This document shows, in pieces, positions 39,638-43,090 of a DNA stretch of 43,644 nt (position 1 is its first letter; each line of letters opens with the position of its first letter). The DNA is from Granulosicoccus sp. Lineage in GTDB: Bacteria; Pseudomonadota; Gammaproteobacteria; Granulosicoccales; Granulosicoccaceae. Under the pieces are notes generated by a model that ran no database searches, was not told the origin of the DNA, and saw only the letters and a program-made list of their open reading frames with translations. Made by a program: the position numbers and the translations under genes. The stretch is from contig JABDKN010000029.1 in the NCBI GenBank assembly GCA_013002205.1, forward strand, positions 1-43,644. The letters are read 5' to 3'.

Positions 39638-39722
39638 GTGACAACGGTCTCCTCGATCTGGGCGCGAAGTATAAGCGACGAGACACCTTTAAATCGAAGC
39701 AGTCGGCAATATCTTGGTTGCC

Positions 39723-39751
39723 AATGGGCCGACAGGCGCCTGGCGCCCATT
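39723..39751. other. Inverted repeat upstream of rpoD
   Basis: AATGGGC (39723-39729) and GCCCATT (39745-39751) form a 7-bp stem around a GC-rich centre that also holds GGCGCC. It lies in the divergent tkt/rpoD region, about 60 bp upstream of the rpoD -10 box. It could be an operator or hairpin; there is no further evidence. Confidence 0.25.
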
Positions 39752-39811
39752 AATTTTATTGGAAATCAGTCGGAAACGACATTTCCCTCTACTAATCAGC
39801 GCACCTCCGAG

Positions 39812-39817
39812 TATAAT
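39812..39817 (+). promoter_or_regulatory. Candidate -10 box of rpoD
   Basis: A perfect TATAAT stands 29 bp upstream of the chosen rpoD start. No convincing -35 is seen 16-18 bp upstream. A transcript from here would have a short leader containing CAGGT, a plausible ribosome binding site for the ATG at 39846. Confidence 0.45.
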
Positions 39818-39845
39818 AAGGGGTTACGCTGACCGCAGGTACTTT

Positions 39846-41660
39846 ATGACCGCTCGCATCGCAATGGACAAGTCACAACAGTCCAGCCTGAAAGAACTCA
39901 TTTCAAAAGGCAAGGAGCAGGGATTCCTGACCTATGCCGAGGTCAATGACCACCTGCCTGAAGGGATCGTCGATCCCGAACAGGTAGAGGAGATCATTGC
40001 CATGATCGCCGACATGGGTATCTCGGTCGGTGAGGTAGCACCTGAAGCCGATTCCCTGATCCTGTCGGATAAAAGCTCCAGTGCCGACGATGACGCGGCT
40101 GATGAAGCGGCCGCTGTGCTTGCCACGGTCGACGGTGAATTTGGCAGAACCACCGATCCGGTGCGCATGTACATGCGCGAGATGGGAACGGTGGAACTTC
40201 TGACCCGTGAAGGCGAAATCGAAATCGCCAAGCGTATCGAGGATGGCCTTAAGCAGGTACTGCGGGCACTGGGCACTTACCCCGAAACCATCAATCTGCT
40301 GCTGGAGCGCTATCAGCAATTCCAGGAAGAGCAACTGCGCTTTACCGACATCATCGTCAATTTCATGGAGACCACGGACGAGATCAGAGTCGCCAAGCCG
40401 CCGTCCGATGATGATGATGATGAGGAAGTCGTCGACACCGGTCCGGACATGGAAGAGATCCAGCGCCGTATGCTGGCCATGCAGAAAGCCTATGCCAAAG
40501 CCCTGAAGGCAATCGATAGTGCCGGCGGCGTACAGGATGCCAGGGGCAAGGCGGAAATGGAAAAGGTGTCTGCCATCTTCCTCGAGTTCAAGTACGCACC
40601 AGCCTTCGTCATCACGCTGGTCAGCGGTCTGCGAGGCCAGGTGGATCGCATCCGCTCGCTGGAGCGCCAGATCCGTGACCTGTGCGTCAAACAATGCAAG
40701 ATGCCTCGCAGCACGTTCATCCAGTCATTCCCGGGTCATGAGACTGACCTCAAGTGGCTGGACTCGGTCACCAAGGTCAAGAAGCCCTACGCCAAGGCAC
40801 TTGAAGAGCACCGTACCGAAATCGAGCTGCTGCAGACGCGCATCCAGCAGATTTGCGTCAGCAGCCAGCTGCCGATCACCGACATCAAGGAAATCAATCG
40901 AAAGATGTCCATCGGCGAGGCGAAGGCTCGCCGTGCCAAAAAGGAAATGGTGGAAGCCAACCTGCGACTGGTCATTTCGATTGCCAAGAAGTACACCAAT
41001 CGTGGCCTGCAGTTCCTCGACCTGATCCAGGAAGGCAATATCGGACTGATGAAGGCGGTGGACAAGTTCGAATACCGTCGTGGCTACAAATTCTCGACCT
41101 ATGCCACCTGGTGGATTCGCCAGGCCATCACCCGCTCGATTGCGGACCAGGCCCGTACCATCCGTATCCCGGTGCACATGATCGAGACCATCAACAAGCT
41201 CAATCGTATCTCCCGGCAGATGCTGCAGGTCATGGGTCGCGAGGCCACCCCTGAGGAGCTGGCCGAGAAGATGGAGATGCCCGAAGACAAGATCCGCAAA
41301 GTGCTGAAGATTGCCAAGGAGCCGATCTCCATGGAAACGCCGATCGGTGATGATGAGGACAGTCATCTGGGCGACTTCATCGAGGACAACAATATTCTGT
41401 CACCGGTGGAAACGGCCACAGGACTCGGGCTCGGTGAAACCACCCATGAAGTACTTGCCAGCCTCACGCCGCGGGAAGCCAAGGTGCTGCGGATGCGCTT
41501 CGGCATCGACATGAACACCGATCACACCCTCGAGGAAGTCGGCAAGCAGTTCGATGTCACCCGCGAGCGTATCCGGCAGATTGAAGCCAAGGCACTGAGG
41601 AAATTGCGCCACCCTACCCGCTCGGAGCAGTTGAGAAGCTTTCTGGACAACCAGGAGTAA
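39846..41660 (+). CDS. rpoD: Primary sigma factor RpoD (sigma-70)
   Basis: RpoD directs RNA polymerase to housekeeping promoters. The 604-residue protein has region 1.1 ([19 protein letters not shown]), region 1.2 ([15 protein letters not shown]), an acidic stretch in the non-conserved region ([11 protein letters not shown]), region 2 ([36 protein letters not shown]), region 3, and region 4 with [17 protein letters not shown]. Start choice: the ATG at 39846 has CAGGT upstream, while the ATG at 39864 ([10 protein letters not shown]) aligns best with the E. coli N-terminus but lacks a ribosome binding site. The window lacks the rpsU-dnaG genes that precede rpoD in many relatives; here rpoD is divergent from tkt. 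It is followed by a 42-bp repeat array and a tRNA. Confidence 0.98.
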
Positions 41661-41674
41661 CCGGCAGGGCAGCG

Positions 41675-41776
41675 ACTCTACGCGTGTAGAGTGAAAACTG
41701 TGAGGCAGTGCCAGTGACTCTACGCGTGTAGAGTGAAAACCGTGATGCACTGCCAGTGACTCTACGTGTGTAGAGT
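41675..41776. repeat. Three 18-bp palindromes at 42-bp spacing after rpoD
   Basis: An 18-bp near-palindrome, ACTCTACGCGTGTAGAGT, occurs at 41675-41692 and 41717-41734, and with one change at 41759-41776, exactly 42 bp apart. The intervening bases are also repeated with a few changes. It starts 15 bp after the rpoD stop. Each unit can form a 7-bp hairpin, without a T-tract. It may help end the rpoD transcript, protect its 3' end or bind a protein. The rest of the gap to the tRNA (41777-41943) shows only a T6 run at about 41852 and a candidate promoter. Confidence 0.92.
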
Positions 41777-41926
41777 TACAGCAGCTATTCGCGCTCGATA
41801 ACTGCCCCGCCACCCGGCTTGGGATACCGCGACCAGGGCAAGGCTGCAGGTTTTTTGACGCACGAGTCAGCGTGCACAGATGCCTGCACTACCCTAAAAA
41901 CAACAGACGTATCAACCTCCTTGATG

Positions 41927-41932
41927 TAGAAT
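41927..41932 (+). promoter_or_regulatory. Candidate tRNA-Ile2 promoter -10 box
   Basis: TAGAAT is followed by TGCGCACT, a GC-rich discriminator typical of stable-RNA promoters under stringent control. The -35 at 41904-41909 (CAGACG) is weak. Transcription would start only a few bases before the tRNA at 41944. Confidence 0.45.
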
Positions 41933-41943
41933 TGCGCACTTGT

Positions 41944-42273
41944 GGGCCTGTAGCTCAGTTGGTTAGAGCAGGGGACTCATCTTATAATGGTGCGTTCATA
42001 TCGTAAGATATGGAATGAACGGGATGAATTCAGGGAAACCTTAACGCTCAGTGAATAACTGGGGCTGATGGCAATCCTGAGCCAAGCCAAAGGTACACCT
42101 TTGGACGGTGCAGAGACTACCTGAGAACTACAGTGTTCTTGATAACAGGCTAGAGCGTCCCGCACCCCACCAGTCACTGGCGACTGAGGGTGATGAGATA
42201 GTCCACTCCGTACAGAAATGTTCGGGACAAGTGAATCCCTTGGTCGCAGGTTCGAGTCCTGCCGGGCCCACCA
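41944..42273 (+). tRNA. ileX: tRNA-Ile2 (CAU), split by a group I intron
   Basis: Exon 1 is 41944-41980 and exon 2 is 42234-42273; joined they give a 77-nt tRNA with CCA encoded. All arms pair: acceptor GGGCCTG with CGGGCCC (one G-U), D stem GCTC/GAGC, anticodon stem GGGGA/TCCCT, T stem GCAGG/CCTGC. The loop is CTCATAA with anticodon CAT. C4-G69 and C5-G68, known recognition pairs of the lysidine synthetase TilS in E. coli, point to tRNA-Ile2 reading AUA rather than elongator Met. A tRNA of this type after rpoD is also seen in Pseudomonas, from memory. The intron must be removed for function. Confidence 0.93.
41981..42233 (+). ncRNA. Group I self-splicing intron in tRNA-Ile2
   Basis: The 253-nt insert lies between U36 and A37, just after the anticodon. 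Group I signs: the last exon base U and last intron base G; an internal guide GTG (41990-41992) that can pair with exon CAT to give the U-G splice pair; P7 strands GACTA (42115-42119) and TAGTC (42199-42203) in the conserved contexts GTGCAGAGACTA and GAGATAGTCC; P2 (41993-42021) capped by GTAA and P9 (42208-42225) capped by GAAA, both GNRA tetraloops; and P/Q-like elements AGGGAAACC and ATCCTGAGCCAAG. Size, site and guide match the Azoarcus tRNA-Ile intron (subgroup IC3, about 205 nt). No homing endonuclease ORF is present. Confidence 0.93.
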
Positions 42274-42343
42274 ATTTTCTCGACCTCGTGTCCTCACCGC
42301 AGGCGGCTACGGGTTTCAGAAATACTTACAGCTCACATCATTG

Positions 42344-43090
42344 TTAAACAACCACCCCGCCATTGATCTGCAACAACTGTCCGTTGACAAATCCACCTTC
42401 ATCACTCACCAGATAAGCTACAGCGGAGGCAATATCTCCAGGAGTACCGAGCCTGCCACTTGGGTTGGCTTCCTTAAGCGACGCGTACTTTGTGCTGAAA
42501 GCTGGATCAGCTACCTCACCCACGATGGTACCTGGTGAAATAATATTGCAGGTAATGCCGTTGCGGCCAAATTCTTTGGCGATAGATTTGGTCAGCCCCC
42601 AATTGGCATGTTTGGCGATGCTGACTGCAGACTTACCAATAGAACCTTGCTGTGCGTTCATGCCGCTGAAATGGATGATGCGCCCCCAGCCTTTTTCAAT
42701 CATGCCCGGCGAGCAAGCGCGCATAAGCCAAAAACATGAGTAAAAATTAACATCCATGACCTTCTGAAATTCCGCTTCATCACCGTTTAGAAGATCAAAG
42801 TTAGGTCGAATTGCAGCGTTGTTCACCAACACATCAACCGCACCGTATGCATCGATTGCCTGCTCTACAATGGCGTGCGCCTGTTCGCGATTGCCGATGT
42901 CACCCATAGCGACAACAGCGCTGCCGCCAGCCTCGGTTATTTCATCTGCAACGCGTTGGCATGCGGCTCTGTCCGATGACCCATTGACCGCGATCGCGTA
43001 CCCGCGTTCAGCCAGCTCAAGCGCTATCGCCCGGCCAATGTTTCTGCCTGAGCCCGTAATCAACGCACAACGATTGATTCTGGCATCCAT
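42344..43090 (-). CDS. SDR-family oxidoreductase lacking the usual Tyr
   Basis: The 248-residue protein is a short-chain dehydrogenase of the FabG-like type: cofactor motif TGSGRNIGR (12-20), NNAA (90-93), Ser142 and Lys160. The Tyr of the YxxxK motif is replaced by Val156 (GKSAVSIAKHANWG). Some SDRs such as 2,4-dienoyl-CoA reductases also lack this Tyr, so it may use a different proton donor. The downstream tail INGGVVV is typical of SDRs. It lies 2 bp after the enoyl-CoA hydratase-like gene, so both are probably one operon acting on acyl-CoA substrates. The exact substrate is not readable. Wording in databases as 3-oxoacyl-ACP reductase would be uncertain for this protein. Confidence 0.8.
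   Translation of the reverse strand: MDARINRCALITGSGRNIGRAIALELAERGYAIAVNGSSDRAACQRVADEITEAGGSAVVAMGDIGNREQAHAIVEQAIDAYGAVDVLVNNAAIRPNFDLLNGDEAEFQKVMDVNFYSCFWLMRACSPGMIEKGWGRIIHFSGMNAQQGSIGKSAVSIAKHANWGLTKSIAKEFGRNGITCNIISPGTIVGEVADPAFSTKYASLKEANPSGRLGTPGDIASAVAYLVSDEGGFVNGQLLQINGGVVV

Follow-up and report, generated by a model that had tools for sequence, protein, structure and literature searches.

An IC3-like group I intron with an additional P7.1-like helix in the tRNA-Ile2(CAU) gene next to rpoD in Granulosicoccus sp.

The closest described relative of the intron reported here is the group I intron of Azoarcus tRNA-Ile, in which the anticodon CAU serves as the tag, the guide has three nucleotides and the ribozyme is about 200 nt long, according to the accessible part of the description (PMC6274277). 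Group I introns in the tRNA-Ile2 of Acidovorax and Burkholderia are also in print; in the excerpted text of the tRNAscan-SE 2.0 paper (PMC8450103) they are only named, with no insertion site given, and what they have in common with the present case is the tRNA. For Thiomargarita and a Beggiatoaceae genome related to it, putative group I introns of tRNA-Arg and tRNA-Leu have been described (PMC4853749, in the portion available). Two tRNA reviews, in their accessible portions, give cyanobacteria, alpha- and betaproteobacteria as the only bacteria with tRNA introns (PMC4033280, PMC11408192), and an earlier note on the DNA studied here, which took its owner for a notable host, agreed with these statements. 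As for phages, the available text of a 2014 review places all phage introns known to that date in protein-coding genes (PMC3984707), and our searches of the open-access literature turned up no phage tRNA described as carrying a group I intron.

We analysed a 43,644-nt stretch of Granulosicoccus sp. DNA (contig JABDKN010000029.1; hereafter the window), in which the earlier note, written from the letters alone, had placed a group I intron directly after the CAU anticodon of tRNA-Ile2. The Rfam model search that it had proposed returned RF00028 at 41971-42225 on the forward strand with 75.7 bits (gathering cut-off 50 bits, E 1.3e-17), the match covering the full length of the model (1-253). This was the sole Rfam match in the window at gathering score and, at E 0.001, the single RF00028 match in the whole genome. 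Joining 41980 to 42234 gave one 77-nt CAU tRNA in ARAGORN with every stem paired, two of the pairs being G-T, and the claimed position was thereby confirmed: the insertion lies between positions 36 and 37 of tRNA-Ile2(CAU). By BLAST, the joined exons were identical to uninterrupted genes over 77/77 nt in the congeners G015 and G016 and over 74/74 nt in G017 and G003. The uninterrupted congener genes fix both splice sites without reliance on any model.

ARAGORN found no tRNA in the window when introns were disallowed and, when they were allowed, spliced the gene wrongly to a tRNA-Gln. A standard tRNA finder misses this tRNA-Ile2 because the intron splits the gene, which is also the cause of missing annotation given for the Acidovorax and Burkholderia introns in the accessible text of PMC8450103. 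No endonuclease gene is present inside the 253-nt intron, which therefore does not qualify as a homing intron. Two open reading frames of at least 80 aa occur at the intron, one antisense over the split tRNA and one in sense that starts within 16 bases of the intron's 3' end. The antisense frame (106 aa, 41977-42297, minus strand, opposite the split tRNA) carries a WARQDSNLRP motif, which we take as a common mark of spurious protein predictions over tRNA genes. The features of the locus are collected in Table 1.

Table 1. Coordinates of the split tRNA-Ile2 gene, its neighbour and the helices of the intron (window positions; cell counts refer to the 74-intron alignment)
Feature	Position	Strand	Remark
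rpoD, directly upstream	39714..41660	+	longest open reading frame; first start codon may precede the true one
5' exon of tRNA-Ile2(CAU)	41944..41980	+	ends in anticodon C34-A35-U36; identical to intact congener genes
Group I intron of 253 nt with terminal G	41981..42233	+	RF00028; boundaries from tRNA reconstruction and empty sites
P1: exon CAU 41978-41980 / guide GUG 41990-41992, plus C41981-G41989	41978..41992	+	
P2 hairpin, GUAA loop 42003-42006	41995..42014	+	both-side changes in 8/8 pairs
P3 5' strand; 3' strand 42156-42162	42020..42026	+	98.5% of cells paired; both-side changes in 4/7 pairs
P4-P5-P6/P6a domain	42029..42108	+	98.6-100% of cells paired
Strands within this domain: P4; P5; P6a	42029-42034/42076-42081; from 42039; 42087-42104	+	
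P7 5' strand GACUA; 3' strand UAGUC 42199-42203; G-binding helix	42115..42119	+	invariant, 74/74
Extra P7.1-like helix between P7 and P3	42120..42149	+	unaligned insert relative to the Rfam consensus
P8	42163..42192	+	99.2% of cells paired
P9, GAAA loop 42215-42218	42208..42225	+	both-side changes in 6/6 pairs; 90.9% of cells paired
3' exon of tRNA-Ile2, CCA encoded	42234..42273	+	tRNA reconstruction and empty sites

The tRNA was identified as tRNA-Ile2, with a predicted lysidine, by its CAU anticodon, by being neither elongator nor initiator Met, by its place beside rpoD, which it shares with the intact genes of relatives, and by the presence of TilS in the host genome (170.7 bits, cut-off 93.6; the TilS model also matches 14/14 control genomes, archaea included, and lies above the cut-off in 10). 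The earlier note had named an intact second tRNA-Ile2 as the finding that would speak against it, and we looked for one in the assembly (4.46 Mb, 316 contigs) and found none. The 77-nt query detected the two exons and, where most of the query was covered, other tRNAs at 79% identity or less; a pseudogene accompanied by a second intact copy in this assembly is thereby ruled out. The two other CAU tRNAs of the assembly are the elongator and the initiator Met, as read from their sequences. There were 31 tRNA matches in total, all named except one (C223), and among the named tRNAs of this fragmented assembly those for Ala, Phe and Ile(GAU) are absent and none has the anticodon UAU. Since the assembly is fragmented and 16/48 family genomes contain neither form of the gene, the missing second copy is no proof.

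The split gene could accordingly be a tRNA pseudogene with a decayed intron, AUA being read by another tRNA-Ile2 in the unassembled part of the genome, and the fragmentation and the missing tRNAs would suit this. So would a genome of another family, G159, which has both forms, so that an intron copy is not always the sole copy, and a truncated extra copy in G048. Nevertheless, we consider it highly improbable: every core element of the intron is intact, the exons are identical to the intact genes of congeners, a UAU tRNA is absent from the named set, and the one-contig relative G023 carries the intron and has no intact copy.

The earlier claim that the tRNA adjoins rpoD also stood (Table 1), and the arrangement recurs: an RpoD-like gene on the same strand (any match above 45% identity, 47-2,821 bases upstream) was found at 97/139 intron loci and 10/11 intact loci, with none within 4 kb of the intact copy of G017. 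Among the 42 intron loci without an RpoD-like gene, 23 have less than 3 kb of upstream sequence and 19 have more than 3 kb, and in these 19 the tRNA is truly located elsewhere. No sigma-70-like promoter was matched in 41650-42400 (0 matches, mean of shuffles 0.7). Between rpoD and the tRNA, a palindromic 19-mer (GACTCTACGYGTGTAGAGT) occurs three times at 42-base spacing (41674-41776), with no further exact match in the genome. Contigs of two relatives (L209 and L243 of G015, L215 of G030) terminate inside or at the end of tRNA-Ile2, and the two G015 contigs have 55 bases of it in common; the locus thus seems to break assemblies.

To assess the fold we aligned 74 introns, chosen as greedy representatives at 82% of 132 distinct introns and extended by 10 and 7 exon bases. 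The 60 pairs that were scored were drawn by hand on the window sequence while the remaining rows of the alignment were visible, a procedure that favours the structure, and 97.3% of the 4416 cells were paired, against 83.1% when shuffled and 35-42% when slid. Changes on both sides were found in 39/60 pairs (24.6 in shuffles), the covariation score was 0.405 (0.127 in shuffles), and on each of five measures the real alignment exceeded all 500 shuffles. The core of P3, P4, P6, P7 and P8 with the P3/P7 pseudoknot is present, with 98.5-100% of cells paired in these helices. As P5, P6 and P7 are invariant, they have no say either way on the structure, and covariation in the core is carried only by P3, P4, P6a and P8.

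The details read at the locus by the earlier note (a GUG guide, a U-G splice pair, a terminal G, the P7 strands and GNRA loops on P2 and P9) all hold, and the relatives follow the same plan. The exon-guide pairs C34-G, A35-U and U36.G of P1 are formed in 73/74 introns and the C-G pair in 74/74, counts that are partly built in, the search pattern itself having demanded CATC and a GTG. At the 5' splice site U41980 pairs with G41990, and the terminal base is G42233; the U.G pair is found in 73/74 introns, but the splicing scripts demanded T and G at the sites, so U.G and terminal G in the relatives are not independent. The P7.1-like region folds into two helices, with 95.3% and 100% of cells paired and both-side changes in 7/8 pairs. 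Its pairs are formed in 69-71/74 rows, the exceptions being mainly L092, L093, L145 and L193, and the inner helix has gaps in 4-5/74 introns.

The absence of a P5abc extension (P5 closes on about 29 nt, 42041-42069) and the small size agree with subgroup IC3, from which P5(a-d) is absent according to the accessible part of PMC11835236. Intron length at the tRNA-Ile2 site ranges from 225 to 334 nt over 139 introns, a size that would hardly accommodate an endonuclease gene in the relatives either. The covarying helix at 42120-42149 does not agree with IC3, which to our knowledge has no P7.1/P7.2 between P7 and P3. Elements of the P7.1/P7.2 type help to define group I classes (PMC3984707, available text), and because of this helix we label the intron IC3-like rather than IC3. 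Compared by the available description, the IC3 intron of Azoarcus tRNA-Ile(CAU) has the same tRNA, CAU tag, three-nucleotide guide and core helices, and differs in the size of its ribozyme, about 200 nt against 253 nt here. A further difference is the P7.1-like helix of about 30 nt, which is extra here; we know of no such helix in the Azoarcus intron. With tag CAU and guide GUG in tRNA-Ile(CAU), the earlier assignment to an Azoarcus-like type is upheld, and the window intron appears to be a newly found representative of the Azoarcus kind that carries an additional covarying helix. Among introns inserted after position 36, those of Lys(CUU) and Thr(UGU) showed a comparable insert by eye, which was absent by eye from 8/8 Leu(UAA) introns after position 34 and from both CAU introns after position 33. 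The tRNA-Leu(UAA) introns resemble the window intron in their IC3-like core and anticodon-loop site and differ from it in the lack of the insert and in the position, which was after 34 in the 8 class loci spliced.

An intron that is real but spliced only with the aid of a host protein is unlikely in our view. For some group I introns, splicing in vivo depends on proteins (PMC3984707, in the part available), and the P7.1-like helix could conceivably be a protein or tertiary contact; on the other side, all core helices are present, and the compact Azoarcus relative is 'self-splicing' by the title of Tanner and Cech 1996. Taken as a whole, the evidence very probably describes a functional, ORF-less group I intron of the Azoarcus type, which is IC3-like and bears a P7.1-like helix. 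It interrupts the one tRNA-Ile2(CAU) gene that we detected in this genome, at an rpoD-tRNA-Ile2 locus.

The expectation of a notable host, in contrast, was not borne out. We found RF00028 matches in 47/192 relatives, and a tRNA-Ile2 intron after U36 is present in 21/48 family genomes, which are all the family genomes with a match, as well as in 9/144 other genomes of the class, each from a different family. We therefore reject the reading of an unusual host, as the intron is widespread in related bacteria. The relatives yielded 56 matches, of which 51 were spliced and second or weak matches in G087, G164, G048, G074 and G143 were left out. Splicing gave a tRNA in 42 cases: 30 tRNA-Ile2 after position 36, 8 tRNA-Leu after 34, one Thr, one Lys and two CAU tRNAs after 33. 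The remaining 9/51 gave no tRNA, five of them lying in or beside 23S rRNA (L052, L065, L069 and L077 twice) and four (L076, L084, L085, L087) giving neither a tRNA nor another placement. The five matches at 23S rRNA genes belong to four class genomes (G087, G074, G082, G164), in which the group I introns were seen again as L247-L250. The CAU tRNAs at L075 and L088 are tRNA-Ile2-like by sequence and carry a different group I intron after position 33.

Scanning named genomes with a sequence pattern yielded at least 119 stretches, of which 109 splice to an intact tRNA-Ile2; ten could not be spliced, nine having the match less than 280 bases from the end of the stretch and one a run of N before it. 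The pattern needs C as the first intron base and a nearby GTG, which biases the scan to this intron type. The 139 introns include seven pairs from the same genome taken twice, giving 132 distinct ones. Named hosts among the matches listed are Lysobacter, Luteimonas, Dyella, Rhodanobacter, Pseudoxanthomonas, Variovorax, Rugamonas, Woeseiaceae, Extensimonas, Piscinibacter and an Azonexus MAG, which has its intron at the same tRNA-Ile2 site (L104). Variovorax, Extensimonas, Rugamonas and Piscinibacter are, we assume, hosts of the same kind as Acidovorax and Burkholderia, which we take to be Burkholderiales. Records named Cytophagales or Splendidivirga (L138, L145) and Opitutia, Opitutae or Verrucomicrobia (L113, L207, L179) also carry introns, at most 68% identical to the nearest outside their own group. 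Two more, from MAGs labelled 'Halobacteria archaeon' (L199) and 'Actinomycetes' (L125), share 88% and 83% identity, respectively, with introns under other names and may be binning errors.

The same pattern applied to IMG/VR returned four contigs. L261, L262 and L264 splice to tRNAs with CAU (RF00028 92.2, 94.2 and 87.8 bits, respectively); in the fourth, L263, the stretch searched ends within the intron and has no Rfam group I match. Terminase was matched in L264 (97 kb, E 4.1e-57) and L262 (55 kb, E 3.6e-19), by a family that also matches 13/14 control genomes, and was not matched in L261 (10.8 kb). On one strand of L264 (10273-11306), a tRNA-Leu(CAA) is followed by tRNA-Ile2 with a 238-nt intron and then by tilS (TIGR02432 117.6 bits, cut-off 93.6). 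Relatives of this TilS were found in 41 viral loci, one being the same contig, and TilS relatives occur in 33 named phage records, including PA5oct and MIJ3, the latter being the phage for which TilS has been reported (PMC6892783, accessible part). Most of the 41 loci have no CAU tRNA in the flanks searched, and intronless CAU tRNAs near viral TilS were either, by eye, tRNA-Ile2-like (L396/L397, L412/L413, L417) or odd-shaped (L390-L395). At L389:225-560 a tRNA-Ile2-like gene near tilS is seemingly split after position 33 by a group I intron whose match is weak and, at 39.2 bits, falls short of the cut-off.

Two complete jumbo phage genomes, those of the Klebsiella phages Muenster and RCIP0023 (about 347-350 kb), each have a tRNA array with a gap that carries no annotation; RF00028 matches there with 104.1 bits, and removal of 231 nt leaves an 80-nt CAU tRNA (L429:2511-2821 and L430:2511-2821). 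Neither genome has a TilS match, so the phage tRNA, if working, would need the TilS of the host, and the proposition that a phage tRNA-Ile2 intron always comes with tilS was rejected. The introns of L261, L262, L264, Muenster and RCIP0023 share with the window intron the site after U36 and the CAU/GUG P1 (RF00028 87.8-104.1 bits); they differ in residing in phage-encoded tRNAs, with tilS directly downstream in L264 and no TilS match in the two Klebsiella phages. Endonuclease-like open reading frames lie beside the tRNA in L261, L262 and Muenster. Among phage records, 87 matched the window query, none over more than 80% of it, and the best 20 of the 87 were intact tRNAs or pieces of intron core; 34 matched the L262 query, again none over more than 80%, and the two that were opened, Muenster and RCIP0023, both had a split tRNA-Ile2. 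A viral intron-core scan gave a tRNA by strict script at 5 of at least 123 loci, L261 being added by direct check. Other phage tRNAs that are split by group I introns, according to the script, are a tRNA-Asn(GUU) in a 543-kb record, a tRNA-Lys(UUU) and possibly a tRNA-Val (L335, L350, L288).

We then considered gain and loss. The family of 48 divides into 21 genomes with the intron, 11 with an intact gene, 16 with neither, some of these at least 90% complete, and none with both. On the rpoD tree, built from the 22/32 family loci with more than 250 RpoD residues in one match, intron presence changes 7 times, with 6 changes forced by starred branches. Recent arrival by lateral transfer, on a phage or an integrative element, rather than inheritance is a possible but doubtful origin. 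The 7 changes, no fewer than with shuffled labels (229/500 as low), are in its favour, as is the intron of G045, which belongs to another genus and is the nearest to the window intron among the 12 family introns compared; however, that of the congener G023, outside those 12, is nearer. Phage tRNA-Ile2 genes with such introns exist, and in G159 an intact tRNA-Ile2 lies next to rpoD and the intron copy 12 kb away, with a Tn7-like element (TnsA-TnsB fusion, TniB, TniQ) and type III restriction-modification genes between them (L246, G159:C10:262000-280000). Against recent transfer, the distances between introns are correlated with those between the RpoD proteins (Mantel 0.57 for 82 loci and 0.49 for 12 loci of the family), the rpoD neighbourhood is kept, and the phage introns of L261, L262 and L264, the three that were compared, reach no more than 73% identity with their closest bacterial counterparts. 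The nearest intron came from one of the three nearest RpoDs in only 46/82 loci. These comparisons are best read as vertical inheritance in which the intron was often lost or replaced and sometimes transferred, and the Tn7-like element of G159 is possibly one vehicle of replacement. Among 12 intron-bearing genomes checked for an intact copy, G159 was the only one with a CAU tRNA more than 90% identical. The truncated extra copy of G048 (L241, G048:C149:6700-7500) consists of the 3' part of the intron and the 3' exon of tRNA-Ile2 after unrelated sequence and is perhaps an integration scar. A second 3' part was observed at a contig end in G036 (L242). In plasmids the search found nothing but 37 nt of the 5' exon, matched by two records.

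From the fold, a route to the mature tRNA can be proposed, in which splicing would presumably be essential. The transcript would fold so that the guide GUG pairs with C34-A35-U36, an exogenous G bound in P7 would cut after U36, and the terminal G would then take the G site, with A37 being joined to U36. The mature tRNA would be released, receive lysidine at C34 from the cell's TilS and read AUA. Lysidine does not pair with G. Because C34 is one of the three exon bases paired with the guide, lysidine before splicing should weaken P1, and the P1 pairing thus suggests that TilS should act after splicing. Since P1 is the anticodon itself, we tentatively suggest a checkpoint: a lysidine-bearing precursor could not splice and the unspliced precursor would hide C34 from TilS, so that the intron would force the order of maturation and the unmodified CAU tRNA, which would read AUG, would stay low. 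Phages with an intron-bearing tRNA-Ile2, in one case directly upstream of the phage's own tilS, might then decode AUA and carry the intron with them, and along with transposons at the tRNA-Ile2 locus they could explain its fast gain and loss in bacteria.

The intron is ordinary in kind, and the earlier reading was wrong only about its rarity. Its value lies in the order of splicing and modification, in the rapid turnover at one site and in the link to phages. The turnover and the occurrence in phage tRNAs bear on how such introns spread, and two of the phage cases are complete genomes of cultured phages in which the intron is unannotated. In the bacterium, the tRNA that reads AUA seems to require an RNA enzyme first and TilS second, the latter acting two positions from the splice site, and the order of splicing and anticodon modification is thereby directly testable.
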